From Bacillota bacterium (lineage in GTDB: Bacteria > Bacillota_A > Clostridia > Christensenellales > Aristaeellaceae), in assembly GCA_023421735.1 (NCBI GenBank), contig JAEZSP010000056.1, positions 10,473 to 74,472 on the forward strand: DNA of 64,000 bases. The letters run 5' to 3'. Positions 35,005-53,590 of the stretch are shown here, piece after piece. Every line of letters begins with the position of its first letter. Within the stretch, counting starts at the first letter, position 1. The position numbers and the translations under genes were made by a program. The notes under the pieces were generated by a model. It was not told where the DNA came from and made no database searches. It worked only from the letters and a program-made list of their open reading frames with translations.

Positions 35005-36180
35005 ATGCAAAGGATGAGGATCAAAGGAAGATTTTTTGTGTTCCTGGCGATTATCATCCTCATCGTGTTTTTCATCGTCCGCCCCTATCTGTCCTTCGGG
35101 GACAAGACGGAGGTCATCATGATGGCCTCATCCAACTACACCGAGACCATGCAGGCGGTGATCGTGCGGGACGAGAACCTGGTGACCGCCGAATCCATCG
35201 CGCGCATCGAGTACATTGCGGCGGAGGACACGCTCGTGTCCGCGGGTGACACGATCGCCTACCTCTACTCGACCGGCTACTCGGAGAGCGAGCTCAAAAA
35301 GCTAGAGACCATCCGGGAAAACATACAGGCCTACCACAAGATCAAGCTCGAGAACATCATCGATCCGAACCTCGAGCGTCTCGATCTCACGGTTGGGCAG
35401 TGGGCGCTGCAGTTTAAAGCGCTCGTGACCGGAAAGACGAACGGCAATCTCATCACGGTAACCCGCCAGCTTGAGAACGCAATGGTCGCCCGGCAGGAGT
35501 ATATGCGCTCCAACATGAGAAGCGACCTCAAGCTCAATAATCTTTATGCGCAGGAGAATACCCGCCTGAACAGCATTGCTTCCTGGCGCGTGGAGTCAGA
35601 CGCGCAGTCTTCCGGCGTCGTCTCCTTTTATACCGACGGCTACGAAAGCGCGCTGAACGCGTCGACCGTTTCATCCCTTTCCGCCGCGCAGGTCAAAAAG
35701 GTGCTCGCGGGCGAGCCCCTTGGGGACGCGTCGAACCGCGTCAAGAGCATCTACCGCCTCGTGAACCAGTCGAGCTGGTACGTCGCAATCCTGACCGACG
35801 GAAAGAAGTGGAACCCCATCGTCGATCAGGAATACTCGATGCAGTTCGAGGGATTCGAGGATCTGACGTTTACTGCGCGGGTGACGACCGTTTCGCAGTC
35901 GGATGGGAGCGTGCTTGCGGTGTTTCGCATCGACGAGCCGATCGGCCCTCTGATCTATCAGAGGCAGGCGCGCGCGAGCGTTTCGATCACCTTCACCGGC
36001 CTCTCGGTTTCCGCGAAGGCGATCAACGAACAAAACGGCCAGACGGGCGTCTGGCTCTACGATGTGCCGGGCGGAACGTTTGTTCCGGTGACGGTTTTGT
36101 CCTCGGACGGCAAGACGGCGCTCATCGAGCCGCAGGTCGACGGCGCGCTGTCGGCCTTCCAGAGAGTCTTGATAAAGTGA
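35005..36180 (+). CDS. HlyD-family membrane adaptor-like protein, division cluster
   Basis: 391 residues with a single N-terminal membrane helix (about 9-27), a lipoyl-like beta segment (IEYIAAEDTLVSAGDTIAYLY, about 66-87), a coiled-coil stretch (about 92-175) and a C-terminal beta domain. This is the membrane-fusion adaptor layout. In Clostridia a gene of this type often precedes ylmE-sepF. It may act at the septum or with an exporter not encoded here. The next gene begins 9 bp later. Confidence 0.75.
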   Translation: MQRMRIKGRFFVFLAIIILIVFFIVRPYLSFGDKTEVIMMASSNYTETMQAVIVRDENLVTAESIARIEYIAAEDTLVSAGDTIAYLYSTGYSESELKKLETIRENIQAYHKIKLENIIDPNLERLDLTVGQWALQFKALVTGKTNGNLITVTRQLENAMVARQEYMRSNMRSDLKLNNLYAQENTRLNSIASWRVESDAQSSGVVSFYTDGYESALNASTVSSLSAAQVKKVLAGEPLGDASNRVKSIYRLVNQSSWYVAILTDGKKWNPIVDQEYSMQFEGFEDLTFTARVTTVSQSDGSVLAVFRIDEPIGPLIYQRQARASVSITFTGLSVSAKAINEQNGQTGVWLYDVPGGTFVPVTVLSSDGKTALIEPQVDGALSAFQRVLIK

Positions 36181-36189
36181 GGGTTCAAC

Positions 36190-36855
36190 ATGACGCGCGA
36201 TGAATTGATCGCGAAGAACATTGACGATTGGAAAAAGAAATTGAACGGTGCGCAGATTTGCGCGGTCACCAAGACCATGCCGGTCGCGGATTTGAACGCG
36301 GCAGTGCGTGCGGGTGCGGATGCGGTGGGCGAAAACCGCGTGCAGGAGTTGATGGACAAGTTTGAATCCATCGAACCCGGCGCGCGCGTCCATTTGATCG
36401 GCCGGCTTCAGACAAACAAGGTTCGGTATGTCATCGGCAAGGTCCATATGATTCAGTCCCTCGACCGCGACGCGCTCGCCCTGGAGATTTCCAAACGTTC
36501 GGCGCAGGCGGGGGTCGAGACCCGTACCCTCGTTCAGGTCAACGTTGCGCGCGAGCCGCAAAAGGGCGGCGTTGAACCGGACGCGCTCTTCCCGTTTCTC
36601 GAAACATGCGCCGCGCTTCCGGGACTTCGGGTGGACGGGCTCATGGCGGTCATGCCGTTCGCGGACGACCCCGAGGACGTGCGCCCCTACATGCGCCAAA
36701 TGCGCGCGCTGTTCGAAGAAGCCGCGCGCGCGCACATCCACGGCGTCCATATGGATGTCCTTTCGATGGGCATGTCGGGAGACTGTCTGGTCGCCGCGGA
36801 AGAGGGATCGACCATGGTGCGCATCGGGCGCGGCATATTCGGTTCGCGCACGTAA
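36190..36855 (+). CDS. ylmE: YggS/YlmE family PLP-binding protein
   Basis: 221 residues of the alanine-racemase N-terminal-like barrel. The PLP Lys is Lys28 in ICAVTKTMP; GENRVQEL, HLIGRLQTNK and LSMGMSGD are typical. The family maintains pyridoxal phosphate and amino acid balance and has no known racemase activity. It sits directly before sepF, as in many Bacillota. Confidence 0.92.
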   Translation: MTRDELIAKNIDDWKKKLNGAQICAVTKTMPVADLNAAVRAGADAVGENRVQELMDKFESIEPGARVHLIGRLQTNKVRYVIGKVHMIQSLDRDALALEISKRSAQAGVETRTLVQVNVAREPQKGGVEPDALFPFLETCAALPGLRVDGLMAVMPFADDPEDVRPYMRQMRALFEEAARAHIHGVHMDVLSMGMSGDCLVAAEEGSTMVRIGRGIFGSRT

Positions 36856-36899
36856 CCGCCGTCCAATTTTTGCCCCACCGGGCGCATGGAGGAATATCA

Positions 36900-37577
36900 A
36901 TGGCACAAAATAAACCCGGCATGTTTAAAAAGATATTGAACGTCATCGGCATCGTGGACGACGGCCCGCGCGATTACGACGACGATTATGATGCGGCCTA
37001 TTCGCGTCAGGGACGACCCAGCACATATGTGCCCCACCAGCAGAGATCCCGCACGGAGGAGACGCGCCGCCGCACCGTCGTTCCGGACGAGCGCAGGGGT
37101 TATTCCGCGCCGTCGCGCGCGAGCGCTTATGACGAAGGCTACACCGTGCGCCGTTCGACGCGCGCTTATGAGGACGACTTTGCAGAGCCGGTGCGCCAGC
37201 CGCGCCGTGCCGCGCAGAGCCGGGCGAGCGAACCCCTGCCGGTGCGCACGCCTTCGCGCTTTTCGCAGAACAACGCGGTTGCCGCGGTTGCGCCACAGGC
37301 GCGTTCCGTCACTCCTGCAAGCGCGCGCACGGTCATGTTTTCGATCATGTCGCTCGAGGAATGCTGCGAGGTGATCGATTCGCTGATTGGCGGGAATATC
37401 GTGCTTTTGACGCTCGATGCGCTCGACCCGAAGCTTACCCAGCGCGCGGTCGATACGCTTTCCGGGGCCGTGTTCGCCTTGCACGCGACCATCCGCAAGG
37501 CCTCCGACAAGACGTATCTGATCGCGCCGCGCACAGTCGAGGTCAACGAGACCTATGACGTTGAGCGCCGGTTTTAG
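36900..37577 (+). CDS. sepF: Cell division protein SepF
   Basis: 225 residues. The N-terminal amphipathic helix FKKILNVIGIV (about 9-19) is for membrane binding; an Arg-, Tyr- and Asp-rich disordered linker follows (about 20-135). The C-terminal SepF domain (about 140-215) has MSLEECCEVIDSLIGGNIVLL and LSGAVFALHATIRKASDKTYLI. SepF links FtsZ filaments to the membrane. The linker is longer than in Bacillus. An in-frame extension before 36900 overlaps ylmE and is not used; ATG follows GGAGGAATATCA. Confidence 0.93.
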   Translation: MAQNKPGMFKKILNVIGIVDDGPRDYDDDYDAAYSRQGRPSTYVPHQQRSRTEETRRRTVVPDERRGYSAPSRASAYDEGYTVRRSTRAYEDDFAEPVRQPRRAAQSRASEPLPVRTPSRFSQNNAVAAVAPQARSVTPASARTVMFSIMSLEECCEVIDSLIGGNIVLLTLDALDPKLTQRAVDTLSGAVFALHATIRKASDKTYLIAPRTVEVNETYDVERRF

Positions 37578-37859: not shown

Positions 37860-38584
37860 CCGATGAGAAGCGGTTGTTTGAGCTCGCGCACCGCGGTGCT
37901 TTTGCGGACAAACCCGCGTTCTCCCGCTTCCTCGAACCTTCGATGATCCCCGTTGCAGAAAAATGCGCCCGGCAGGCGGGCGCGCATGTGGCGTTTTTCG
38001 GCGGATATGAAGGCGCGGAGCGCGTGGTCGCGGCGTTTTCGGCGGGAGGTGGGGCGATCGAATACCCCATCGTCTGCCTCGCCCTTCGTTGGAATCAAAA
38101 GTATGGCGCCGCGGGGCACCGCGATCTTCTGGGCGCGGTGATGGGCCTTGGCATCGACCGGGAGGCGACGGGGGACATCGTGGTTGCGGATGGCGTCGCG
38201 TATCTGTTTTCAGAGCGAGAAATGGCGCGGTATCTGCGTGAAAACCTCACATCCGCCGGCCGCGTGAAACTGACGGTAACGGAGGAAGCGGGCGGTGTGG
38301 TGGCTGCGGAGCCGGAGGGTGTCCGCGCGCGGATCACGTTTTCATCGCCGCGCCTCGATGCCATTTTGTCCGCGGGCTACGACCTTTCGCGTGCCGAAGC
38401 GCAGCGGATGATCGCAGCCGGATTGGTGAAACTGAACCACGTCCCGGTGGAGCGCACGGACGCACAGGTCAAGGAGGGCGACCTCCTCTCTGCGCGCGGG
38501 CACGGGCGGCTCAAGGTCGAGGAAATGCTCGGCGAAACAAAAAAAGGACGTCTGGCGGCGCGCGTGTTCCGGTACGGAAAATAG
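37856..38584 (+). CDS. ylmH: YlmH-type S4-domain RNA-binding protein
   Basis: 242 residues. The N-terminal YlmH domain (about 1-165) contains FFGGYEGAERVVAAF and GDIVVADGVAYLF. The C-terminal S4 domain (about 175-235) has RLDAILSAGYDLSRAEAQRM. In Bacillus subtilis YlmH acts in rescue of stalled ribosomes; that role is known for the family. The ATG at 37856 overlaps ylmG and begins MTDEKRL. Confidence 0.9.
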   Translation: MTDEKRLFELAHRGAFADKPAFSRFLEPSMIPVAEKCARQAGAHVAFFGGYEGAERVVAAFSAGGGAIEYPIVCLALRWNQKYGAAGHRDLLGAVMGLGIDREATGDIVVADGVAYLFSEREMARYLRENLTSAGRVKLTVTEEAGGVVAAEPEGVRARITFSSPRLDAILSAGYDLSRAEAQRMIAAGLVKLNHVPVERTDAQVKEGDLLSARGHGRLKVEEMLGETKKGRLAARVFRYGK

Positions 38585-38689
38585 ACGGATCGGTAAAATC
38601 ACGCCGAGATGGGAGGAAACGGCGCGGCGTTGGCGAATAAGATAACAAACTACCCACATGGGATCAATCACGAAAGGATGTTGTGAAGA

Positions 38690-39202
38690 ATGCCGATTAG
38701 TGTGAAAGATATCAAGGAAAAGGACTTTACCGCCCAGAAGCACGGCTATGCGATTGAGGAAGTGGATGATTTTCTCGACGAGATCGCGGAGCAGGTGTCG
38801 GAACTGATCAAGGAGAACCTTCTTTTGAAGGACAGGCTCGCCAAGGCAGAATCCACGCCGCCGCCCGCCCCGGTCGTCATCCAGAAGGAGAGCGCCAAGC
38901 CCGACTTCGACGACGAGGGTTATTTCAAGAATCTCGAAAGCGCCATGCGCGAGTCGCTCATCAATGCGCAGCGCATTGCGGAGGAGACGAAGAAAAAGGC
39001 CGACAAGGAAGCCGAGGAATCCGTATCTGCCGCGCGTGCCAAGGCGGAAGCCTTGACGACCGAGGCGAAGAACGAGGTTGACGCCATGAAGGCGGAGGCT
39101 CAGTCCATGCGTGAAATGATCGCGAAGTACCGCACGGATTTCCGCGCGCTCATCGAGGAGCAGATTAAGGTATTGAAGACCCGGGAGTCGCTTTTCGACT
39201 GA
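38690..39202 (+). CDS. divIVA: DivIVA-domain protein
   Basis: 170 residues. The N-terminal DivIVA domain (about 1-40, DIKEKDFTAQKHGYAIEEVD) senses membrane curvature. The rest, about 30-160, is a coiled coil rich in Glu, Lys and Ala with a Pro break near 63-68. DivIVA proteins mark septa and poles. A 105-bp spacer separates it from ylmH. The ribosome site AAAGGATGTTGTGAAGA is moderate. Confidence 0.92.
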   Translation: MPISVKDIKEKDFTAQKHGYAIEEVDDFLDEIAEQVSELIKENLLLKDRLAKAESTPPPAPVVIQKESAKPDFDDEGYFKNLESAMRESLINAQRIAEETKKKADKEAEESVSAARAKAEALTTEAKNEVDAMKAEAQSMREMIAKYRTDFRALIEEQIKVLKTRESLFD

Positions 39203-39478
39203 CCGGATGGAAGACGGAGTTGAGCCGTCGGACGCGGGCGGAGGCTCGCCCGGCGGCTTTTCCGTATGCCGCGAAGCGGATGGCCGAACCCGTGCAGATG
39301 AAGACGCGACGATTCGTCGGGTCTTGGCTGACCCGGTTTTGCGCACGGGAAATCGGGGCCGAGATTCGAGGTAATGGGCCGACGGCGGCGGCTTTTTCCC
39401 ATCAGGATAATGCGTGTCGCCGCATGCCGTGCATTTTGCGCAGCCGATTCGGGGATACTGGCGTCGGAGGCGACAAAT
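39203..39478. other. Spacer between divIVA and the DUF5665 gene
   Basis: A 55-codon frame from ATG 39207 to TAA 39374 (begins MEDGVEPSDAGG) is open but has no recognisable family and no good ribosome site. Many Clostridia have a DksA/TraR-like zinc finger gene here; no such motif is seen on any frame. A degraded gene is possible. Confidence 0.3.
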
Positions 39479-39754
39479 GTGCGCGATAGTTTGGAAGAGC
39501 GGGTCGACAAGCTCGCGGGGGTGCTCGAACGGATGCGACTGGACGAGTATCTCGACCGCGTAACGAACCGCAGACGAATGATCTGGGAAAACCTTCTCTA
39601 TGGCATGATGCGCGGGGTCGGCTATATGATCGGCTTTACCGTGCTGGGCGCGCTGGTACTCGTGATACTGGGCAGGATCGCGTCGAACAACATTCCCGTT
39701 CTGGGCGGATTTTTGGCGGAGGTGCTCGCCGAGGTGGAGGCGTGCAGACAATGA
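39479..39754 (+). CDS. DUF5665 small membrane-associated protein
   Basis: 91 residues from GTG 39479, behind CGGAGGCGACAAAT. Features are a charged N-terminal half with YLDRVTNRRRMIWENLLYGM, then a membrane helix with GYMIGFTVLGALVLVILGR (about 52-70) and NIPVLGGFLAE. The pattern fits DUF5665 proteins, which often lie beside lspA in Clostridia. Their role is not known. A longer in-frame extension upstream lacks family similarity. Confidence 0.75.
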   Translation: MRDSLEERVDKLAGVLERMRLDEYLDRVTNRRRMIWENLLYGMMRGVGYMIGFTVLGALVLVILGRIASNNIPVLGGFLAEVLAEVEACRQ

Positions 39755-39755
39755 A

Positions 39756-40235
39756 ATGGACATAAAAGGAAAATTCAGGGGTGCATGGGTCGTGCCAGTG
39801 GCGCTCGTGCTCGACCGGATCACGAAAGCGTGGGCGGCTGGATACGGGGATGGTGCGCACGCGATCATACCGGGGATATTGGGCTACCGCTACGCACAGA
39901 ACACAGGGGCGGCCTTTTCCATATTCAGCGGGATCACGCAGATCTTGGCGCTTTTAACCGCGCTTTTGATCGTCGGGGTTTCGCTGTATCTGTTTTTTGG
40001 AAAGGACATTCCGCGCGTTGCGCGCTACGGGCTCTGGCTTGTAGTCGCGGGTGGACTGGGAAACCTTTACGACCGTATTTTCTACGGTTACGTCGTCGAT
40101 TTTTTCAATTTTCTGTTTGTTGATTTCGCTATTTTCAACGTCGCGGATATCTGCGTGACGTGCGGGGCGGTGCTTGCCATTGCAAGCATCCTCTGGCAGG
40201 ATGCGCGCAAGGGGGCAAGGCATGCGGCTGATTGA
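39756..40235 (+). CDS. lspA: Lipoprotein signal peptidase (signal peptidase II)
   Basis: 159 residues with four membrane helices. Family motifs are DRITKAWA (20-27), NTGAAFSIF (about 48-56) and the catalytic Asp pair in VVDFFNF and FNVADICV. LspA cleaves prolipoprotein signal peptides after Lgt has acted, and lgt is 5 kb upstream. It starts two bases after the DUF5665 stop and overlaps the following gene. Confidence 0.93.
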   Translation: MDIKGKFRGAWVVPVALVLDRITKAWAAGYGDGAHAIIPGILGYRYAQNTGAAFSIFSGITQILALLTALLIVGVSLYLFFGKDIPRVARYGLWLVVAGGLGNLYDRIFYGYVVDFFNFLFVDFAIFNVADICVTCGAVLAIASILWQDARKGARHAAD

Positions 40236-41145
40236 GTTTGCCGCGCCCCGCGAGGAGCGGCTCGACGTGCTTTTGTCGGAACAGGCGGACATCACGCGTT
40301 CGCGTGCGGCGGCACTCATCAAGGAGGGACGGGCGTCGGTCGCGGGTGATGTGCCGGCGAAGGCGGGGCACAAGGTGCGGGTGGGGGAGCCCATCATTCT
40401 GGAAATTCCAGATCCCGCGCCCGCGCGTGCCGTGGCACAGAACATCGAGGTCGACGTGCTCTATCAGGATGCCGACCTTGCGGTCGTCCTCAAACCATCC
40501 GGTATGGTGGCGCATCCGGCGGTCGGGAATCCGGACGGCACACTCGTGAACGCGCTTCTGGCGAAACTCGACAGCCTCTCCGGCATCGGCGGGGAGCTTC
40601 GCCCCGGGCTCGTTCACCGGATCGACCGGGATACCTCGGGGCTTCTCCTGATCGCAAAAAATGACCGCACACATGTCTTTTTGTCCGAGCAGATTGCAGC
40701 GCATACTGTCGAACGCGCATACTGGGCGATTGTCGAGGGCGGCATGAAGGAGGACGATGGCTTCGTCGAGGGGCCCATCGGACGCCACCCCGCCGATCGC
40801 AAGAAGATGGCGATTGTCCGGGGCGGACGCGCGGCGCGCACGAATTGGCGGGTTGAAGAACGCCTGCGCGGCGCGACGCTGCTCGAATGCAGACTCACGA
40901 CGGGGCGCACACACCAGATCCGCGTACATATGGCATCCATCGGCCATCCGGTGCTGGGCGATCCAACCTACGGCCACAAAAAACCTGCTTTTGCGGTGAA
41001 GGGCGGGCAGCTGCTGCACGCCTACAAGCTCGGGTTCGTTCATCCGACCACAGGGGAGCATCTACTCTTCACGGTTCCTCCGGAACCGCGGTTTCTCGAC
41101 TGGTATCATAAATTGGGAGGAAATTCGGATGCGCTATTCACTTGA
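40222..41145 (+). CDS. RluA/RluD-family pseudouridine synthase
   Basis: 307 residues with an N-terminal S4 domain (about 10-60) and a catalytic domain containing LVHRIDRDTSGLL, where Asp135 is the expected catalytic residue, then TTGRTHQIRVHMASIGHPVLGD. It makes pseudouridine in rRNA or tRNA. The S4-containing form beside lspA resembles RluD or YlyB, which act on 23S rRNA. It overlaps lspA by 14 nt and the mannosidase gene by 17 nt. Confidence 0.9.
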   Translation: MRLIEFAAPREERLDVLLSEQADITRSRAAALIKEGRASVAGDVPAKAGHKVRVGEPIILEIPDPAPARAVAQNIEVDVLYQDADLAVVLKPSGMVAHPAVGNPDGTLVNALLAKLDSLSGIGGELRPGLVHRIDRDTSGLLLIAKNDRTHVFLSEQIAAHTVERAYWAIVEGGMKEDDGFVEGPIGRHPADRKKMAIVRGGRAARTNWRVEERLRGATLLECRLTTGRTHQIRVHMASIGHPVLGDPTYGHKKPAFAVKGGQLLHAYKLGFVHPTTGEHLLFTVPPEPRFLDWYHKLGGNSDALFT

Positions 41146-43363
41146 CGGGACATGGAAACTCAGATATCATCCCGAAAAACGGGATATGCCGGATGACGCG
41201 CACTGGCCCGAGATCCCGGCGGAAGTGCCGGGAAATGTGGAGCTCGATCTGTTCCGCGCGGGCGTCGAGGGGGATCCCTTTTATGACGAAAACATCTACG
41301 ATTATCGAAAGTATGAGTTTTACCGCTTCGTGTACGAGCGGACGTTTGCGTTGCCTGCGATCACAGGCGGTAAGCCCATCCTCGTCTTCGAGGGACTCAA
41401 TACATATGCGGATGTATTTGTGAACGGGAAAAAGGTGGGGCATGCGGAAAACATGCTCGTTTCCCAGTCCTTTGATGTATCGGATGCCGTCCAAACGGGC
41501 GAGAATGCGATCCGGGTGGTCATCTACGCGGCCTCGAACATCGCGCGCCAAAAGGACTATCCCGTGAGCGTCTCGAGCGGACACGAGGACAGCGACGAAT
41601 ACATTCGCCAACGCAAGCCCCCGCACAGCTTTGGTTGGGATATCATGCCGCGCTTCCCCTCGGCGGGCATGTGGCGCGGCGTGTATGTGGAAATTGAAAA
41701 GCCGACGCGCCTCATCCAGACCTATTATGCGACGCTTACAGCCGATGAAGCGTGTGCGACGCTCGTCTACAAGTATCGCTTTGCCACCGATGCGGACACC
41801 CTCGACGGATTCCAGATTCGCGTGACGGTGGGCGATCAATCCGTCACGAAAAACGCCTTCTTTGTCAGCGGCGAAGGAAACATCACGGTCGAAAACCCCC
41901 GGCTCTGGTGGCCGCGCGGCTACGGCGCGCAGGCGCTCTACGATGTGAAGATGGAGCTGCTCCAAGAAGGTGCGGTCATGGACGAGAAGACCGAGCGCAT
42001 CGGCATTCGCACCGTCGAAATTGACCACAAGATGCTGCCCGGCGACGCCGGCGAATTCCTCATCAAGGTCAACGGCTGTCCGATCCTCGCAAAGGGGTCA
42101 AACTGGGTTCCGCTTGACGCCATGCACAGCCGCGATGCCGGGCGCTATGCCCGCGCGTTGGCGCTGTTTTACGAGGCAGGCTGCAATATCGCCCGTTGCT
42201 GGGGCGGCAACGTCTACGAGGATCACCAGTTCTACGACCTCTGCGATGAATACGGCATTCTCGTATGGCAGGATTTCACCATGGCATGCGCGATCTATCC
42301 GCAGGATCGGGCATTTTTGGATATCATGGAGGATGAGGCGACGCGCGTGATCCGCAAGTTGCGCAATCACCCCTCGATTCTTCTGTGGGCGGGCGACAAC
42401 GAGGTGGACGAGGCCTATGTCTGGCATGGATACAAACCCATCGGCAACCGCTATAATGCCGTGACGCGCGAGGCGCTGCCGCGTGCCGTCCGGCTGAACG
42501 ACCCCTTCCGCATGTTTTTGCCCTCTTCCCCGTACATCGATTTCGACGTGCCGCGCTATGAGGTGCCGGAACAGCATAACTGGGGCGCACGGGCATATTT
42601 CAAGGACGACTTCTATAAGCACTCAAACGCGCACTTCATCAGCGAATGCGGCTATCACGGCTGCCCCGCGCCGCAGTCGCTTGCAAAGTTTATGCCGGCC
42701 GACAAGCTTTGGCCGATGCATCATTCCGTGTGGGATACGCATGACACGGATTACATGCCCAAGGGCGGGCGCGGATACAACAGAAACCAATTAATGGCGG
42801 ATCAGGTTCAGATCATGTTCGGCTTCGTGCCGGACGATCTCGCCGAATTCTCGCTGCTCTCGCAGGTCGTGCAGGCGGAGGCGAAAAAATTCTTTATCGA
42901 GCGCACGCGCATCAAAAAGTGGCGGCGCGCGGGCATCATTTGGTGGAACATGCTCGACGGCTGGCCGCAGATTTCAGACGCCGTCGTCGATTACTACTTT
43001 GTTAAAAAGCGGGCCTTTCACTACATCAAGCGCGTGCAGGAACCCGTTTGCGTGATGATGGACGAGTTGGTCGATTGGGGGCACGCGGTCATTCTCGGAA
43101 ACGACAGCCGGGCGCACGCGGATGTCACATATACCCTTACGGATGCGGATACGGGCGAGGTGCTTCTCTCGGGTTGCGCGCACGCGAACCCCAACGAGAA
43201 TGTGACCCTCGCATCCGTACGCGTTCTGGCGGGCGCCCAGCGCCTCATCCTGATTCGTTGGACGTGCTGCGGAAAAACCTACTTCAATCACTACATCACC
43301 GGTTATCCCCACTTCGACGCAGCGCGCATGAAGCATTGGCTTTCGCTGATCGACGCGCAGTAA
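41129..43363 (+). CDS. GH2 beta-mannosidase
   Basis: 744 residues in the GH2 domain order: jelly roll (about 1-160), Ig-like domain (about 170-285), catalytic barrel (about 290-620) and a short C-terminal beta domain. Acid/base Glu425 is in WAGDNEVDE and nucleophile Glu506 in HFISECGYHG. The sequence begins RYSLDGTWKLRYHPEKRDM and has no signal peptide, so it would cleave imported manno-oligosaccharides in the cytoplasm. A GGGAGGAAATTCGG site lies inside the end of the previous gene. An oligosaccharide- or peptide-type ABC importer follows 1.1 kb downstream. Confidence 0.88.
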   Translation: MRYSLDGTWKLRYHPEKRDMPDDAHWPEIPAEVPGNVELDLFRAGVEGDPFYDENIYDYRKYEFYRFVYERTFALPAITGGKPILVFEGLNTYADVFVNGKKVGHAENMLVSQSFDVSDAVQTGENAIRVVIYAASNIARQKDYPVSVSSGHEDSDEYIRQRKPPHSFGWDIMPRFPSAGMWRGVYVEIEKPTRLIQTYYATLTADEACATLVYKYRFATDADTLDGFQIRVTVGDQSVTKNAFFVSGEGNITVENPRLWWPRGYGAQALYDVKMELLQEGAVMDEKTERIGIRTVEIDHKMLPGDAGEFLIKVNGCPILAKGSNWVPLDAMHSRDAGRYARALALFYEAGCNIARCWGGNVYEDHQFYDLCDEYGILVWQDFTMACAIYPQDRAFLDIMEDEATRVIRKLRNHPSILLWAGDNEVDEAYVWHGYKPIGNRYNAVTREALPRAVRLNDPFRMFLPSSPYIDFDVPRYEVPEQHNWGARAYFKDDFYKHSNAHFISECGYHGCPAPQSLAKFMPADKLWPMHHSVWDTHDTDYMPKGGRGYNRNQLMADQVQIMFGFVPDDLAEFSLLSQVVQAEAKKFFIERTRIKKWRRAGIIWWNMLDGWPQISDAVVDYYFVKKRAFHYIKRVQEPVCVMMDELVDWGHAVILGNDSRAHADVTYTLTDADTGEVLLSGCAHANPNENVTLASVRVLAGAQRLILIRWTCCGKTYFNHYITGYPHFDAARMKHWLSLIDAQ

Positions 43364-44317: not shown

Positions 44318-44447
44318 TAAATTACCGTGAATGACGCGCCCGACGGAATCGGTATGCGCATGCGCGCAAAAGCGCCGCATGCCCGTAGGGTGCGCACATG
44401 AACCAGTTTGGGCAATCAGCCCGAAATCACACAAGGAGGAAGGAAAT

Positions 44448-46370
44448 ATGACCAAAAGAGTATCTCTGGTACTCGCCCTGGCGCTCGTCGTTGCCATGAT
44501 GATCCCGTCGTTCGCTTCCGCGGAAGCGATGACCGACGTTGGCACGCCCCGCGCGCAGACCCTCATCTGTGAGCCCGACGCCGACGTTTACGCCAACCCG
44601 GGTCAGTTCAACCCTTACATGACCGGCACCCAGGCTTCCTGGGGCATGCATCAGATCATGTGGTCGGACGGTCTGTGGGAGATCAACACCATGGAAGGCA
44701 CGACCATCCCGACGGTCGCGGCCGATCTCGCTGTCCCCAACGAGGACTTCACCGAGTGGACCATCACGATCCGCGAGGGCCTCAAGTGGTCAGACGGCAA
44801 CGATCTGGATGCCAACGATGTTCTGTTCACCTTCAACATGATCATGAACACCGAGAATCTCGGCGACCACACCTACTACAACAGCCTCTTCACCGGCGCC
44901 GAGCTGGTCGATGATTACACGCTGAAGGTCTTCTGCAAGGCGCCCTTCACCCGTATCATGACCACCCTGGGCGTCAACCTCTGGGGCTGCGGCTTCCGCG
45001 TCGTCCCCGAGCACGTGTACAGCCAGGTCGAGGACGTCCTTTCCTTTAAGGACAGCGAGCCCCTCGCAGTCGAGCAGTACGTCGTGAAAGAGTACGACGA
45101 TCTGGGCACCTGGATCCTCTACGAGAAGCGCGCCGACTGGGATGCCACCCCCACCGGAATCCTCTACGGCGAGCCCGTTCCCCAGTACGTCCTCTATCGC
45201 GTGTTCGGCAACACCGAGTCCCGCGTGATGGCGATGATCAACAACGAAGTCGACGTCATGAACGAAGTTTCCTATGAGGATCTTCTGACCATGCTCGATT
45301 CCTCGGAGACCGTCCGCGGCTGGTACAAGGATTATCCCTATGCCAACACCGACGACGCCTGCTCCAAGGGCGTGAACTTCAACTGCGCGATCGAGCCCTT
45401 CAACGACGTCAACGTCCGCTGGGCGCTCACGCTGTGCTGCGACTGGGTCGAGGTTTCGGAGAACATCTTCGAGGGCATCGGCCGCATGTCCCCCCTGAAC
45501 GTGCCCTCCATCACCCCCATGGAGAACCTCTATGTCAAGCCCATGCAGGAGTGGCTCCAGGCCTTCACGATCCCGGGTACCGACATCAAGGTCTATGACC
45601 CGAATTTCGCCATGACCCTGGCTGCGGCCCTCATCGAGGACTACGGCTATGATCTGGGCGGCTATTCCGAGGACGAGCTGAAGACCATGTTCGGCTCCGG
45701 CTACTACCGCACCGACGTCGAGGCCGCCACCGAGCTTCTGCTCGCAGCGGGCGACTTCGAGCTCACGGACGGCAAGTGGTTCTATAAGGGCGAGCCGTGG
45801 ACCATCGAGGTTCTCGTGCATCCCGAGGATTCCTCCACGCAGGCTTCCCGTTCGGGCAAGGCCATCGCGGATCAGTGGTCGAAGTTCGGCGTCACCGTCG
45901 AAGTGACCACCCTGACCGGCGCAGACATCGGCACCCGCGTCAACCTCGGCGACTTCCAGGTCGACGACGGCTGGCCCACCTGCTCCTCCTACCGTCAGGA
46001 CTTCTACAACAACGTCTCCGGCTGGAACTCCGAGACCTTCAACTACGCAATCGGCGAGACCGCGACCGGCGTCTCCGGCTACCGTGCGTACGCCTCCAAT
46101 CCGGAGCTGTCCGCCCAGATCACCGAAGTTCTCAAGGCCGCCGAGAAGGTCGATCCCGACAGCGAGGAGTGCTACGAGCTGATGACCCAGTTCCTCAAGC
46201 TCGCCTTCGAAATGCACTACAACATCACCGTGCAGGCCGGCACCAAGATCGTTCCGGTCAACGAGGCCTACTGGACCAACTTCCCGACCGCCGAGAACCC
46301 CTACGAAGGTCCGTGGTGGTGGTGGTCCAACTTCAAGTTCACCGTTGCCCAGCTGAAGCCCGTCGAGTAA
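44448..46370 (+). CDS. Opp/Dpp-type solute-binding protein (SBP_bac_5), no lipobox
   Basis: 640 residues. The signal peptide is MTKRVSLVLALALVVAMMIP followed by SFASA, with cleavage before EAMTDV. There is no Cys near the cleavage site, which is unusual for a Gram-positive binding protein. The family 5 fold is seen in the AADLAVPNEDFTEWTITIRE stretch and the LKWSDGNDLDANDVLFTF motif. The C-terminus is Trp-rich (GPWWWWSNF). Codon choice is strongly biased to C-ending codons, which suggests high expression. Large proteins of this family bind oligosaccharides in some organisms, and the upstream mannosidase makes that plausible. Confidence 0.9.
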   Translation: MTKRVSLVLALALVVAMMIPSFASAEAMTDVGTPRAQTLICEPDADVYANPGQFNPYMTGTQASWGMHQIMWSDGLWEINTMEGTTIPTVAADLAVPNEDFTEWTITIREGLKWSDGNDLDANDVLFTFNMIMNTENLGDHTYYNSLFTGAELVDDYTLKVFCKAPFTRIMTTLGVNLWGCGFRVVPEHVYSQVEDVLSFKDSEPLAVEQYVVKEYDDLGTWILYEKRADWDATPTGILYGEPVPQYVLYRVFGNTESRVMAMINNEVDVMNEVSYEDLLTMLDSSETVRGWYKDYPYANTDDACSKGVNFNCAIEPFNDVNVRWALTLCCDWVEVSENIFEGIGRMSPLNVPSITPMENLYVKPMQEWLQAFTIPGTDIKVYDPNFAMTLAAALIEDYGYDLGGYSEDELKTMFGSGYYRTDVEAATELLLAAGDFELTDGKWFYKGEPWTIEVLVHPEDSSTQASRSGKAIADQWSKFGVTVEVTTLTGADIGTRVNLGDFQVDDGWPTCSSYRQDFYNNVSGWNSETFNYAIGETATGVSGYRAYASNPELSAQITEVLKAAEKVDPDSEECYELMTQFLKLAFEMHYNITVQAGTKIVPVNEAYWTNFPTAENPYEGPWWWWSNFKFTVAQLKPVE

Positions 46371-46397
46371 TCGCTTCAAAAAGGTAACCGAAACTGG

Positions 46398-46425
46398 CGA
46401 CCGCCCGCCTTGCGGCGGGCGGTCG
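46398..46425 (+). promoter_or_regulatory. Intercistronic hairpin after the binding-protein gene
   Basis: CGACCGCCCGCC (46398-46409) and GGCGGGCGGTCG (46414-46425) form a perfect 12-bp stem with a TTGC loop and no T run. Such hairpins commonly stabilise the binding-protein mRNA and lower expression of the downstream transporter genes. Confidence 0.75.
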
Positions 46426-46443
46426 TATAAGGGGTGCGAATAG

Positions 46444-47436
46444 ATGAAATTTGCAAAGTATCTCGGCGGCAGGGTACTTTCGTGGTTTATGGTGATATTC
46501 ATCGGCGTATCATTCATGTTTTTTATCCCACGATTCTTCCCCTCGGATCCCGTCGAGAGCTATATTCAGCAGATGCTTTCGAGGACGAGCCTTCAGGCGG
46601 AGGTCGTGGTATCGCTGCGCGAGCAGCTGCGCGAGCAGTACGGCCTGGAGGGCACCATCTGGGAGCAGTATGCGAACTTTCTCAGGGGCGCCGTCCAATT
46701 TGATTTTGGCCCGTCGCTCATGAGCTTCCCGACGAGCGCGTCCTCCATCGTGGCGCGGTATCTTCCGTATACGGTCGGGCTCTCTCTGACGACGACACTG
46801 ATTTCGTGGATCATCGGCAACGCCATCGGAATTCTGGCCGGATTCAGGAAGAACAAACTGTCCTCCGTCATTTTGGAGTACGTCGCGATCTTCCTGTATC
46901 CGATTCCGTATTTTATTCTGGCGCTTGTCGTGCAGATATTCCTGTGTTACATTTTGAAGCTGTTCCCCATCACCGCCACGATCCTGACGCGGGGAACCTT
47001 CGCCCAGTATATCACAAGCCTCGTGCGCTCGTCGCTTCTGCCCGCGCTCACGATGGTGCTGGTCGGCTTCGGCTGGTGGGTCATCAGCATGAAGGCGGTC
47101 TCGTCGGATACTGCGCAGGAAGAGTTCGTGCGCTACGCGCGCTACCGCGGCATCCGCGAGGGGCGCATCGCGCGCAAGTACGTCTTCCGAAATTCCATCC
47201 TCCCGCAGGTATCGGGCCTCGCGATCAGCCTGGGCGGCATATTCGGCGGCGCGCTGATGACCGAGATCATCTTCCAGTATCCCGGCGTCGGTCAGCTCGT
47301 CCAAAAGGCCATCATGCAGGCAGATTATAACATGATCATGGCCACCGTTTCCATTTCAATCATCGCGATTGCATCGGCGACGCTGATCGCGGATCTTCTC
47401 TATCCGCTGATTGATCCGCGCGTCCGCTATTCTTAA
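46444..47436 (+). CDS. ABC importer permease (DppB/OppB type)
   Basis: 330 residues with six membrane helices. The first is at about 12-33, then an extracytoplasmic loop (about 34-100) and the inner-membrane EAA-like loop RYARYRGIREGRIARKYVFR (about 232-251), which contacts the ATPases. It is the second gene of the importer operon, downstream of the 12-bp hairpin. Confidence 0.92.
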   Translation: MKFAKYLGGRVLSWFMVIFIGVSFMFFIPRFFPSDPVESYIQQMLSRTSLQAEVVVSLREQLREQYGLEGTIWEQYANFLRGAVQFDFGPSLMSFPTSASSIVARYLPYTVGLSLTTTLISWIIGNAIGILAGFRKNKLSSVILEYVAIFLYPIPYFILALVVQIFLCYILKLFPITATILTRGTFAQYITSLVRSSLLPALTMVLVGFGWWVISMKAVSSDTAQEEFVRYARYRGIREGRIARKYVFRNSILPQVSGLAISLGGIFGGALMTEIIFQYPGVGQLVQKAIMQADYNMIMATVSISIIAIASATLIADLLYPLIDPRVRYS

Positions 47437-47451
47437 AGGGGGCATAAGGAT

Positions 47452-48294
47452 ATGAGTAAGATTTGGAAAAACACCTCTGCCCGCTTCAAGATCGGTTTTT
47501 TCGTGGTCGCGGTTCTCATTATCTGTGCGTTCATCGTGACGCTATTTTACACGGGACCCAATATTACGGAGTATAACTCCTACAAGAAAAACCTGCCCAT
47601 CAGCGCGCAGCACCTTCTGGGCACGACGTCGCTTGGACAGGATACCTTCTGGATGTTGGCCTTCTCCCTTCGCAATTCCATCACCATCGGCGTCATCGTC
47701 GGCATCTTCGGTACCGTCGTCGGCGTCCTCTATGGTCTGATTGCGGGCTTTGTGGGCGGCACGATGGACAGGATTATGATGACGGTTTCGGATACCTTCA
47801 TCGTCATTCCGTCACTGCCTGTTTTGATCCTCATGACATCCCTCATGAGCGGATCACTTTCGGTTCTCCCCATTGCGATCGTTCTATCAATGTTCGCATG
47901 GGCGCACCCATCGCGCCACGTGCGCGCGATGTGCCTCTCCCTCAGGGAGCGCGACTTTATTTCGACCGCGCGATTCTCGGGCGAGGGCATTTTGCAGATT
48001 GTCGTGACGGAAATCCTGCCCTACCTTCTCACTTGGTCGCTTTCAAACTTTATGAACGCGATTCTGGTTGCCATCGGTCAGGAGTCGAGCCTTGCGGTTC
48101 TGGGTCTTTCGTCCTCGACGCTGCCGACCCTCGGCAATATGATTCAGTGGTCGCGCGACAGAAACGCCATCATGGCGAAAAAATGGCTCTGGATCGGTTC
48201 TCCGATCACGACGACCATCATTCTGTTTATCTCGCTGTTCATGCTCATTACGGGCTACAACGAGTACATTTCCAAGAAGAGAGGTAGATTGTAA
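47452..48294 (+). CDS. ABC importer permease (DppC/OppC type)
   Basis: 280 residues with an N-terminal membrane helix (about 12-35), the LLGTTSLGQDTFWMLAFSLR segment usual for OppC/DppC, and five further helices. The coupling loop has RDFISTARFSGEG (about 165-177). It pairs with the DppB-type permease. Its stop codon shares one base with the start of the first ATPase gene. Confidence 0.92.
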   Translation: MSKIWKNTSARFKIGFFVVAVLIICAFIVTLFYTGPNITEYNSYKKNLPISAQHLLGTTSLGQDTFWMLAFSLRNSITIGVIVGIFGTVVGVLYGLIAGFVGGTMDRIMMTVSDTFIVIPSLPVLILMTSLMSGSLSVLPIAIVLSMFAWAHPSRHVRAMCLSLRERDFISTARFSGEGILQIVVTEILPYLLTWSLSNFMNAILVAIGQESSLAVLGLSSSTLPTLGNMIQWSRDRNAIMAKKWLWIGSPITTTIILFISLFMLITGYNEYISKKRGRL

Positions 48295-49274
48295 TGCTGA
48301 AAATTGACCATCTTACCGCTTCTTATAAGACGATGGATGGAAATGTGGTCGCCGTAGAAGATTGTAACTTCGAGGTGTATGACAACGAGATCTTCGGCAT
48401 CGCGGGCGAGTCCGGCTGTGGCAAGTCAACGATCATGAAGGCCATGTACGACATCATCGAGTTCCCTCTTGAGGTGGACAAAGGCCGCGTCGTCATTACG
48501 GGTAAAAAGGATGGGAAGGCTTTCGAGTACGAGACGGGTCAGATCCGAAAGACCTGGTGGAACAACATTTCCTACGTTCCGCAGGCCGCCATGTCGGTTC
48601 TCAATCCCATCGCGCGACTGAAAAATCAGTTTCTCGATTCCATTCCGGAAGCCGACAAGAAGCGTGAAAAGCCCGAGCAGACGGTCAAGCGCGTGCAGGA
48701 TTATCTCGTCGCGCTGAACCTTTCTCCGGATGTCCTGGATTCCTATCCTTTCCAGCTCTCGGGCGGCATGCGCCAGAGAGTGATCATCGCGCTTGCGACG
48801 TTCATGAACCCGAACATTGTGCTCGCGGATGAGCCGACCACCGCACTGGACGTCGTGGTGCAGCGCGGCATCCTGATGCTTCTGATGAGGCTTCAGAAAC
48901 AGCTTCAGAATACGATGATCTTCGTCAGCCACGATTTGGGCGTGCATTATCAAATCACGGACCGCATCGCGATCATGTATTCTGGCAAGATCATGGAAAT
49001 CGGCAAGACGACCGAGATGTTTGCCAATCCCATGCACCCCTATACGTCGATGCTCATCAACGCCCTTCCCCGCGTCGGCGATAAAACCGAACGCGAGGGC
49101 ATTAAGGGCGAACCGCCGTCCCTTCGGAATCCGCCTCCCGGATGCCGCTTCGCGCCGCGTTGCCCGAAGGCATTTGGGTTGTGCACGCAGGCCGTGCCCG
49201 AATTCCGCGAGGTCGCGCCCGGCCGCTTTGCCGCGTGCCATCTTCTGAATAAGGAGGGGAATTCGAATGGCTGA
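48294..49274 (+). CDS. ABC importer ATPase (DppD/OppD type)
   Basis: 326 residues with Walker [10 protein letters not shown] (about 40-48), Q-loop VPQAAMS, signature LSGGMRQRV, Walker [13 protein letters not shown] and H-loop VSHDLG. The C-terminal oligopeptide-type extension has [14 protein letters not shown], the Cys-rich motif that can hold a 4Fe-4S cluster in this subfamily. It is a normal member, in contrast to its partner. It overlaps that partner gene by 8 nt. Confidence 0.93.
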
Positions 49275-50796
49275 AAACACAGCGGCCAATAAGGGGAAGA
49301 ACGTGCTTGAGATTCAGCATCTCAGCAAGGTCTTCAAAATCGGCAGCCTGCTCTCCAGAAAGAGGCTGACCGCGGTCGATGATGTGTCGCTTTCCATCTC
49401 CGCCGAAAAGCCGGTGATTCTCTCGATCGTCGGCGAATCCGGCTGCGGAAAATCGACGCTTGCGAAGCTGGTTTTGCGCCTGCTCGACATCGATAAGGGC
49501 AACATCATGCTCGACGGTCATAACTACGTCGAGAAGGCGAACGCCCCCGAGCTTTGGAGAAAGAAATTCATTACGCACACCATTGGCCTTGTCGCAGTTG
49601 TGCTGGGCATGCTCATTGCGTTGGTCGGCATGTTCGGCATGTATCACATGTCCGTCATGGGGAATCGCTATGGCCTCGGCTTTGGCGATACGAATGCGAT
49701 TGTCACGCAGTACACCGCCGATACGTACACGGGCGAACCCAGCTATACGGAAATCGTAAAGGCATCTGAGGCGAACGGCAAGACGAAAGCTGCACGCGAA
49801 GCCGCCCGGGAAACCGATATGGCGAACCTCACGGCGGAACTTGAGGCGCGCGGCCTCAAGGGTACTGTTGAGGATTACCTCATCAGCGAGAAGATCAATG
49901 CCTTGCAGGATGCCAAGAAGTATGAAGAAGGCATGGTCATCGCGATTTCTTCGTCGAAGATCAACATCGTCGCGCAGATGATGCTCATCGGCGCGCGCAC
50001 CGCGCTGATCGGCGCATGCGTATTTGCATTGGGCATTCTGCTTCTCTTCATCGCTGCGATCAAGTCGTATCCGTTCCGTCGGTTCCGCCTCGACGTGCAG
50101 CCCATTTTCCAGAACCCCTTTGAGGCGTTCTCGAGCCGAAAGACGGTGGATAAGTACCTGTACAACACCGCGCGTCGGTTGGGCATTGCGAAGAACAAGG
50201 CAGACGCGACCAAGCGCGTGGATGAAGCGCTGCACTCCGTCGGGCTTTCTCTCGATGTGGTGCGCGGTAAGTATTCAAACCAGTTCTCCGGCGGCGAGCT
50301 CCAGCGCGTGTCCATTGCGCGCGCGCTCATCACCAAGCCGAAGATCATCATCGCCGACGAGCCTGTTGCGATGATCGATGCATCCATGAAGATGAACATC
50401 GTGAACCTCTTCAAGGATCTGCGCGATAAGTTCGGCATCAGCTTTATCTACATTACCCATGATTTGTCCACCGCGTATTACGTGTCCGATTACATCGCGA
50501 CGCTCTACCGCGGTTGCCTGATCGAGTACGGCATGGCAAAGGATATCATGGAAAAACCCGCGCATCCCTACACGAAGCTCCTCATGGATTCCGTGCCGCG
50601 CGTGGGCGATAAGTGGAAGCAGGATGTGGCGATGCCGGACATGGAGGATAAGGAATACTCCGTCACGCATTGCAAGTTCGCGGCGCGTTGCCCGTATGTC
50701 ACCGACGAATGCGTCAAGACGCGTCCGCACATGGTCGATCTTGGCGATGAGCGTCAGGTGCTGTGCTATCATCCGTTGGGCCAGAACGCGTCTTAA
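49267..50796 (+). CDS. ABC importer ATPase (DppF type) with inserted membrane domain
   Basis: 509 residues, about 170 more than the family norm. Walker [10 protein letters not shown] is at 56-64. At about residue 100 (APELWRKK) the normal sequence stops and resumes at about 271 with RRFRLDVQPIFQNPFEAF, which holds Q-loop Gln282. The insert has a membrane helix at about 104-130, a hydrophilic, helix-prone loop of about 105 residues and a second helix at about 238-265. Signature FSGGELQRV (340-348), Walker B IIIADEPV and His398 are intact, so the ATPase should work. The C-terminal Cys motif CKFAARCPYVTDEC is present. The insert spans about 49564-50076 and the reading frame is unbroken. Confidence 0.92.
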   Translation: MAENTAANKGKNVLEIQHLSKVFKIGSLLSRKRLTAVDDVSLSISAEKPVILSIVGESGCGKSTLAKLVLRLLDIDKGNIMLDGHNYVEKANAPELWRKKFITHTIGLVAVVLGMLIALVGMFGMYHMSVMGNRYGLGFGDTNAIVTQYTADTYTGEPSYTEIVKASEANGKTKAAREAARETDMANLTAELEARGLKGTVEDYLISEKINALQDAKKYEEGMVIAISSSKINIVAQMMLIGARTALIGACVFALGILLLFIAAIKSYPFRRFRLDVQPIFQNPFEAFSSRKTVDKYLYNTARRLGIAKNKADATKRVDEALHSVGLSLDVVRGKYSNQFSGGELQRVSIARALITKPKIIIADEPVAMIDASMKMNIVNLFKDLRDKFGISFIYITHDLSTAYYVSDYIATLYRGCLIEYGMAKDIMEKPAHPYTKLLMDSVPRVGDKWKQDVAMPDMEDKEYSVTHCKFAARCPYVTDECVKTRPHMVDLGDERQVLCYHPLGQNAS

Positions 50797-52226: not shown

Positions 52227-52255
52227 ATTTTAGCAGTTCCATAAAAATCCGTCAA
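52227..52255 (-). promoter_or_regulatory. Promoter of the GNAT gene
   Basis: On the minus strand TTGACG (52250-52255), 17-bp spacer, TAAAAT (52227-52232), 23 bp before the start codon. Confidence 0.7.
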
Positions 52256-52284
52256 TGCATAGGATCATAACTTTGGAGGCATAC

Positions 52285-52851
52285 ATGCTATTTTTCCCCA
52301 GCGCAATCATGGTGATCGATCAGGAAAGCGACCGGCACTTCATGGAGAACCTCTATCGCGATCATCACAGATTAATGTATTGGGCGGCATACAAGGTTAT
52401 GGGTGTAAACGACAGTCTCGACGACGTCGTTGGGGATGCCTGCGTGCAGCTCATACGTAAAATTCATGTTATTCGCGAAATGGAAGGAAACATTTTGCGC
52501 GCTTACGTCATTTCTACTGTGAGGAATACGGCGCTTTCCCATCTCCGATCGGAGGGCAGACGGCGCATGCGCGACGGGGACGTGGACATGGAGGGCCTGC
52601 GCGCCGAAGATCCCAGCCCGCTCGAACGCGTGTGTACCCTCGACATGGTGGCGCGCCTGATGGATGCGATTGAACATTTGTCCATGCGCGACCAGGACGT
52701 ATTGCGAATGAAATATCTTTCCGACATGACCGATGCGGAAATCGCCGAGACGCTTGGGATCGAGCGCGTGACCGTACGCGTGGCGCTTTCGCGTGCGCGC
52801 AAGCATGCGTACCAGTTGATGGTGGAGAAGGAGGAAAATGGCGCAATCTGA
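52285..52851 (+). CDS. Sigma-70 family RNA polymerase sigma factor (ECF-like)
   Basis: 188 residues. Region 2 is at about 18-60 (RDHHRLMYWAAYKVMG, DDVVGDACVQLIRKI) and region 4 at about 128-178 (LSMRDQDVLRMKYL, DAEIAETLGIERVTVRVALS). There is no region 3, as expected for extracytoplasmic-function sigmas. The ATG at 52285 follows TTGGAGGCATAC; an earlier ATG at 52255 lacks a ribosome site. It overlaps the DUF4367 gene by 14 nt, which suggests a sigma and regulator pair. Confidence 0.88.
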   Translation: MLFFPSAIMVIDQESDRHFMENLYRDHHRLMYWAAYKVMGVNDSLDDVVGDACVQLIRKIHVIREMEGNILRAYVISTVRNTALSHLRSEGRRRMRDGDVDMEGLRAEDPSPLERVCTLDMVARLMDAIEHLSMRDQDVLRMKYLSDMTDAEIAETLGIERVTVRVALSRARKHAYQLMVEKEENGAI

Positions 52852-53590
52852 TGTGATGTCTCGTGAAGAGCGCCTTCTCGCGGACTGCGAGGACGCCATG
52901 TTTCGCCTTGCCGTTGCGCGTTTCGAGGTGCGTCGGGCGGAGGTGGTTTCGGCGGAAGCCGACGCGGGTGACGCATTGTTGACTCCAGAGGCCATGGATC
53001 ACGCGTATGAGATCGCCCGCCCACGCATCCTCAGGCGCGCGCGTAGGGAAGGATACCGCGGCGTGCGCCGCCGTCTGCTCTCGCGCGGCTCAACCATGGT
53101 TGCCATGCTGCTGGTTCTGGCGCTTGTGGGCGGCATTTCCGCGCTTGCCGTAAGCCCCGAGATGCGCCAAAGGCTCTCCCGCCTGCTCGTCGATCCGCAG
53201 ACGGAGTTTACGGCGTTTGAGATGGATCGATTGGACGAATACCCGCCACCCGATGTGCCGGACGAGTTCAAGGGAGACTTTTTCCCGAGCTACATACCGG
53301 CTGGGTTCATACGCACAGACGCATCCTGGTACACCGTCGTATATGAGTCCGAGGATGACCGACGGTTTTTTTATGATGACATGAATGAGAATACGTCGCT
53401 GAATCTCGACACCGAAAACGCGGAGGTGACCTACACAAAGGTGGGCGGCACCGATGCCATGCTCGTTCAGAAAAATGGAATGACAACGGTCGTCTGGTCA
53501 TTTGCGAATCACTATTTCTTGGTAAGCGGAATGGAAATGCCGGATGAAGTGATGAAGATTGCGGAATCGCTGGTCGTCATCGACCGATAA
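52838..53590 (+). CDS. DUF4367 membrane protein, probable anti-sigma factor
   Basis: 250 residues: a charged cytoplasmic N-terminal part (about 1-83), one membrane helix (about 86-106, MVAMLLVLALVGGISALAV) and an extracytoplasmic DUF4367 domain (about 125-250, FFPSYIPAGF, TYTKVGGTDAMLVQKN). Genes with this layout often directly follow ECF sigma genes and are thought to hold the sigma at the membrane until a signal arrives. No HxxxCxxC zinc anti-sigma motif is seen, so the role is inferred from position and topology. Confidence 0.75.
   Translation: MAQSDVMSREERLLADCEDAMFRLAVARFEVRRAEVVSAEADAGDALLTPEAMDHAYEIARPRILRRARREGYRGVRRRLLSRGSTMVAMLLVLALVGGISALAVSPEMRQRLSRLLVDPQTEFTAFEMDRLDEYPPPDVPDEFKGDFFPSYIPAGFIRTDASWYTVVYESEDDRRFFYDDMNENTSLNLDTENAEVTYTKVGGTDAMLVQKNGMTTVVWSFANHYFLVSGMEMPDEVMKIAESLVVIDR

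Follow-up and report, generated by a model that had tools for sequence, protein, structure and literature searches.

ABC importers of the Opp/Dpp class consist of membrane subunits and of ATPases that touch them through coupling helices. The ATPases are usually soluble, peripheral subunits without membrane helices, which is a usual trait rather than a strictly defining one. We analyzed a stretch of 64,000 nucleotides (here referred to as the window), which contains an ATPase gene of this class (49267..50796, + strand) with two hydrophobic helices predicted inside the ATPase fold. The locus therefore raises the question of whether such a segment is a genuine and inherited part of the protein, and what an ATPase with a membrane hairpin of its own might do.

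The ATPase and its family

The gene is a single open frame for 509 amino acids, and the Pfam, NCBIfam and structure matches identify its product as an OppF/DppF-type ABC ATPase. Pfam found the ABC_tran domain split into two stretches and an oligo_HPY C-terminal region (PF08352) at residues 419-482 (50521..50712), the latter with 60.8 bits against a cut-off of 27.1. All five ATPase motifs are present. They are the Walker A motif GESGCGKS (residues 56-63; 49432..49455), the strand VQPIFQN leading into the Q-loop (residues 277-283; 50095..50115), the signature motif FSGGE (residues 340-344; 50284..50298), the Walker B motif with D364 and E365 (50341..50361) and the H-loop histidine H398 (50458..50460). 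The strand was placed by alignment and by the AlphaFold2 model, and Q282 is the residue that we take, by family, to be the Q-loop glutamine. The preliminary description had called the motifs on both sides of the insert intact, and in fact their key residues are invariant in ten aligned insert-bearing proteins. Four cysteines (469, 475, 482 and 500; 50671..50766) are also invariant in the ten proteins. They are putative [4Fe-4S] ligands, because their spacing of 6, 7 and 18 resembles that of the E. coli DppF ligands C293/299/306/323 (6, 7 and 17; PMC12136057).

The scores for named family members stay below the NCBIfam cut-offs, with 223.9 bits against 408 for the best (PRK11308) and 173.6 against 660 for DppF. 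The partner ATPase of the same operon, which has no insert, also falls short (236.5 against 408), so the low scores reflect the subfamily and not the insert alone. In sequence, the protein thus belongs to an established kind of ATPase, but it is predicted to be an integral membrane protein.

The operon and its possible substrate

The insert-bearing ATPase is the last gene of a five-gene operon on the + strand. The preceding genes encode a family-5 solute-binding protein (44448..46370; from its ORF, Pfam and structure relatives), an OppB-type permease (46444..47436) and an OppC-type permease (47452..48294), both from Pfam, NCBIfam and comparison with relatives, and an OppD-type partner ATPase (48294..49274; from its ORF, Pfam and comparison with relatives). 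These four genes are the ones that accompany an OppF/DppF-type ATPase in an Opp/Dpp importer. The order SBP-B-C-D-F is found in 28 of the 30 loci listed, and the other two begin inside the operon. There is no space for another membrane gene among the five genes (44331-50796). Compared with eight relatives chosen from 80 loci, OppB, OppC and the OppD-type ATPase show no change matching the insert, and a compensating loss of a permease helix was rejected on the same comparison.

The longest ORF of the binding protein (from 44331) probably starts 117 bases early; AAGGAGGAAGG stands before the ATG at 44448, the likely start. From there the N-terminus resembles a signal peptide without a lipobox. 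By a simple pattern, which errs both ways (in L012 the box was truncated, and the one in L061 could be spurious), 55 of the 67 readable binding proteins of insert-less relatives have no lipobox either. The missing lipobox is thus not specific to the insert, and the absent lipid anchor was rejected as a sign of a tether that goes with it. The box is missing even in the clostridial relatives L001, L007-L010 and L019, where lipid-anchored binding proteins are expected.

The solved relatives of the binding protein include a chitin-oligosaccharide binding protein (1zty), together with many named for peptide or nickel binding. A glycoside hydrolase family 2 (GH2) gene lies upstream (41129..43363, + strand; Pfam) and hints at an oligosaccharide substrate. 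An oligosaccharide is our best guess for the cargo, and the system is probably an Opp/Dpp-type importer for oligosaccharides.

Among the 30 loci listed, L019 has the nearest relatives of the binding protein, OppB and OppC (62, 73 and 73%), and L001 those of the two ATPases (80% for the partner and 82% for the insert-bearing one, after the insert). These mixed closest relatives within 44331-50796 may reflect exchange between paralogous operons. Elsewhere in the window, an ECF-type sigma factor gene overlaps a DUF4367-domain gene (52255-53590), possibly as a sigma/anti-sigma-like pair. Two long ORFs on the - strand, 38342-39868 (508 aa) and 35671-36906 (411 aa), have no Pfam match at E up to 0.001 and may not be genes.

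Extent of the insert and its hydrophobic helices

In the window ATPase, the distance from the Walker A lysine to the QPIFQN motif is 216 residues. The same spacing is 39-43 in all 80 insert-less relatives (the best 80 of 310), as measured by the standard motif in 77 of them and by a looser motif in L062-L064 (spacing 42). Altogether 111 loci were fetched, some places twice, and each of the 100 with the standard motif has a spacing of 39-43; the other 11 are L062-L064, L081-L087, which are not orthologues, and L089, which gave no match. The net insert is about 175 residues long. By alignment and motif spacing, the part missing in insert-less homologues covers residues ~92-264 (49540..50058).

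Hydrophobicity, alignment and spacing thus agree with the preliminary description, which had reported a two-helix insert just before the Q-loop of a DppF-type ATPase. The place was right, and the exact bounds have shifted slightly from ~100-270 (49564-50076). Its layout of helix, hydrophilic loop and helix also stands with corrected limits. Predicted transmembrane helix 1 covers residues ~104-128 (49576..49650) instead of 104-130, predicted transmembrane helix 2 covers residues ~244-265 (49996..50061) instead of 238-265, and the predicted extracytoplasmic loop between them (residues ~129-243; 49651..49995) has about 115 residues instead of ~105.

Hydrophobicity over 19 residues peaks at 106-124 (mean Kyte-Doolittle 2.61) and at 247-265 (2.93). 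All ten insert-bearing proteins have both hydrophobic segments, whereas a 19-residue stretch at or above 1.6 is absent from all 41 insert-less homologues that were taken from the 80 loci for comparison. A third segment, 223-241, passes this threshold in P0001 and P0006 only (1.62-1.65), with unfavourable insertion energy (5.8 and 5.9). The GC content at the third codon position is 0.72 for the insert, close to the values of its two flanks (0.76 and 0.78), so that the insert resembles normal coding sequence of this gene.

Conservation of the insert among relatives

A database search for the insert elsewhere had been set as a check beforehand. The search with the insert region gave eight proteins, and a second search, started with the most distant one, yielded P0010 as well. 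As a result, we obtained nine relatives (P0002-P0010) of 498-535 aa, on 15 contigs, which carry the insert in frame. Identity in the insert region falls from 80 to 34% among the first eight. In the alignment of the ten proteins, length changes within the insert are confined to the loop, which evolves fast: its identity is 29% in P0009 and 24% in P0010, where residues 265-504 are still 86 and 87% identical.

The helices are much more constant. Helix 1 has glycine at 107, 114, 121 and 124 and helix 2 at 249 and 256 in all ten proteins, and residue 242, just ahead of helix 2, is glycine in nine and alanine in one. Glycines are therefore seven apart in both helices of every insert-bearing protein, as is typical where antiparallel membrane helices pack tightly against each other. 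All ten also keep the patterns MxHxxxxxNR and GxxGxxExYL.

The distribution of charges supports a chain that returns to the cytoplasm, as the preliminary description had proposed. There are 3-6 Lys/Arg on the inner flanks of the helices in all ten proteins, and the outer flanks have 1-2 in eight proteins, 2 and 4 in P0009 and 2 and 7 in P0010. The positive-inside rule is clearly obeyed by eight of the ten. It is ambiguous for helix 2 in P0009 and P0010, because the flank before this helix (4 and 7) exceeds the inner flank after it (3 and 4).

Origin and distribution of the insert

We built a tree of the ATPase without the insert (midpoint root; L014 flagged as a long row; L019 left out). A single branch (100/96; 99% of bootstrap trees) separates the ten insert-bearing proteins from all others, and this clade adjoins the insert-less L014 and L001, both from clostridial genomes. 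The insert is an inherited feature of one small bacterial lineage. Since its carriers form one clade, a single gain is the simplest reading, and the insert was probably acquired once, in the ancestor of a small clostridial lineage. A prolyl-tRNA synthetase encoded in the window shares 85% identity with its counterpart in the L001 genome, the closest of 391 genomes drawn from the class of that genome.

We further searched for the insert in related genomes, each time without a positive control. It was found in none of the 11 genomes of chosen loci and in none of the 308 genomes of the family of G001 and L001, and in the order of G001 four of 396 genomes gave matches at E 0.002-0.007, about the chance expectation. 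A search of the same 308 genomes with the whole protein found 24 with an orthologue at E up to 1e-110, and every match starts at residue 266-272. The spacing is 41 in 23 of these 24 orthologues; in L089 the motif was not found, even with the looser pattern. Because none of the family genomes carries the insert and their orthologues match only from residues 266-272, the carriers appear to belong to a lineage poorly represented in the genome collections searched.

The insert was also compared with known domains. Slices covering six of the ten inserts gave no match over a cut-off in Pfam or NCBIfam, so a known domain was rejected; the best sub-threshold matches were DUF2721 (E 0.044, one of six), DUF202 (E 0.48, three of six) and the CD3337/EF1877 mobilome membrane protein (E 0.013, one of six). 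A stand-alone protein as the source was likewise rejected: a profile of the six inserts was scored against the 7,996 candidates with the most words in common and gave no match up to E 10, in a word-based and length-limited search that could miss a remote source.

Structural models

AlphaFold2, run with 51 sequences of which 10 bear the insert, modelled the protein as an intact ATPase with a helical hairpin (mean pLDDT 84.7, pTM 0.71). The modelled insert helices cover residues 94-134, 174-215 and 229-264, so that the loop is mostly helical, and are followed by a helix at 270-276 and a strand at 277-280 running to the Q-loop. The pLDDT is 90-95 over residues 101-130 and 231-260; it is weaker at the inner helix ends (59 over 91-100 and 77 over 261-270) and over 151-180 (55-72). 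The best solved match is OppF (8z21_D; TM-score 0.87 by target length), and the top matches are E. coli OppF, DppF and their partners. The insertion point would probably lie at the outer edge of the ATPase, near the membrane. The insert modelled alone reached a pLDDT of only 65.4, and with this weak model no solved structure matched at E < 0.001 (best E 1.5); a solved fold was rejected on this basis.

Possible roles of the hairpin

We consider it fairly probable that the hairpin anchors the ATPase in the membrane and packs against a permease. In this explanation, a segment forming a tight two-helix membrane hairpin and a small helical outside domain would have been inserted, probably once, into the stretch just ahead of the strand that ends in the Q-loop, and because of this segment the ATPase would sit in the membrane by itself. 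The hairpin would most likely pack on the outside of the C-type permease that the ATPase serves; OppC is the likely neighbour because DppF pairs with DppC in the solved Dpp relative (PMC12136057). It would help to hold the transporter complex together, and the extra domain of ~115 residues would be placed on the outer face near the docking site of the binding protein, which it may contact. The transporter would most likely otherwise run like other Opp/Dpp importers. The anchored reading is supported by the two hydrophobic helices in all ten proteins and in none of the controls, by the conserved glycines and by the confident hairpin in the AlphaFold2 model. The weak model of the insert alone, the ambiguous charges around helix 2 in P0009 and P0010, the unchanged partners and a loop with no recognisable domain speak against it.

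The same hairpin could be read in other ways. It might work as a lever, in which the outer domain detects a ligand or the loaded binding protein and helix 2 relays the signal straight to the ATP site. The outer face of the cell would then be linked directly to the Q-loop, and the ATP engine could be sensed or controlled from outside, bypassing the permease. Helix 2 does end only ~12 residues before the Q-loop strand (V277 at +12 and Q282 at +17 after residue 265), the layout of helix, outside helical domain and helix resembles bacterial sensors, and a chemoreceptor domain (2d4u_B) stands among the chance-level fold matches (rank 21, E 3.8). We nevertheless regard this role as unlikely, since conservation is lowest in the loop and none of the fold matches reaches significance. 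It is just as doubtful that the hairpin docks a further membrane protein or mediates self-association instead of binding the permeases. The glycine faces, which both helices conserve at heptad intervals, could pack on a third partner and the permeases show no compensating change, but the operon has no room for an extra membrane gene and mutual packing of the two helices would account for the glycines.

A tolerated, functionless insertion kept by descent would suit the narrow lineage and the fast-changing loop. It is quite improbable, because the helices, glycines 107, 114, 121, 249 and 256 and the two sequence patterns are kept in all ten proteins despite a loop differing by up to 76%. The preliminary description had also allowed for an assembly or chimera error at the insert junctions and for an intein-like segment. 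The former is contradicted by the nine in-frame relatives on other contigs, and for the latter, six inserts compared with Pfam and NCBIfam matched no intein family, even up to E 10. In fact, the shared insert, the kept glycines and the codon-position composition, unchanged across the junctions, together effectively rule out a chimera and argue for selection on the hairpin; an artefact of any kind is extremely improbable.

Comparison with known systems

The E. coli OppF and DppF structures (8z21, 8z1v-8z1y) share with the window ATPase the fold, the motifs and the four-Cys Fe-S C-terminal region, and they also work in a heterotetrameric translocator with a binding protein; however, their chains have 333-334 residues and no insert. 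The insert-less clostridial orthologues (such as L001, which is RUG11247, and L014) have the same operon order, and the L001 ATPase is the 82% identical one mentioned above, but they keep the short spacing of 39-43. OppD/DppD of M. tuberculosis (8j5q, 8wd9) belong to the same ATPase family, but have two ATPase domains per chain, and the alignments of 8j5q and 8j5s show no such insert. No ABC ATPase whose fold contains a membrane hairpin came up in the literature searched, where coverage of subscription journals was thin, or in the titles of the matched solved structures, which give a partial view.

Membrane subunits joined to ATPases through coupling helices are also what the E. coli Dpp structure shows (PMC12136057). 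If the anchored reading is true, a hairpin and an outside domain beside the Q-loop would show that this division of subunits is not obligatory in ABC importers. The lineage would then offer a natural system for asking to what extent the assembly of ATPase subunits relies on coupling helices, and whether a second route may give access to ATP hydrolysis from outside.
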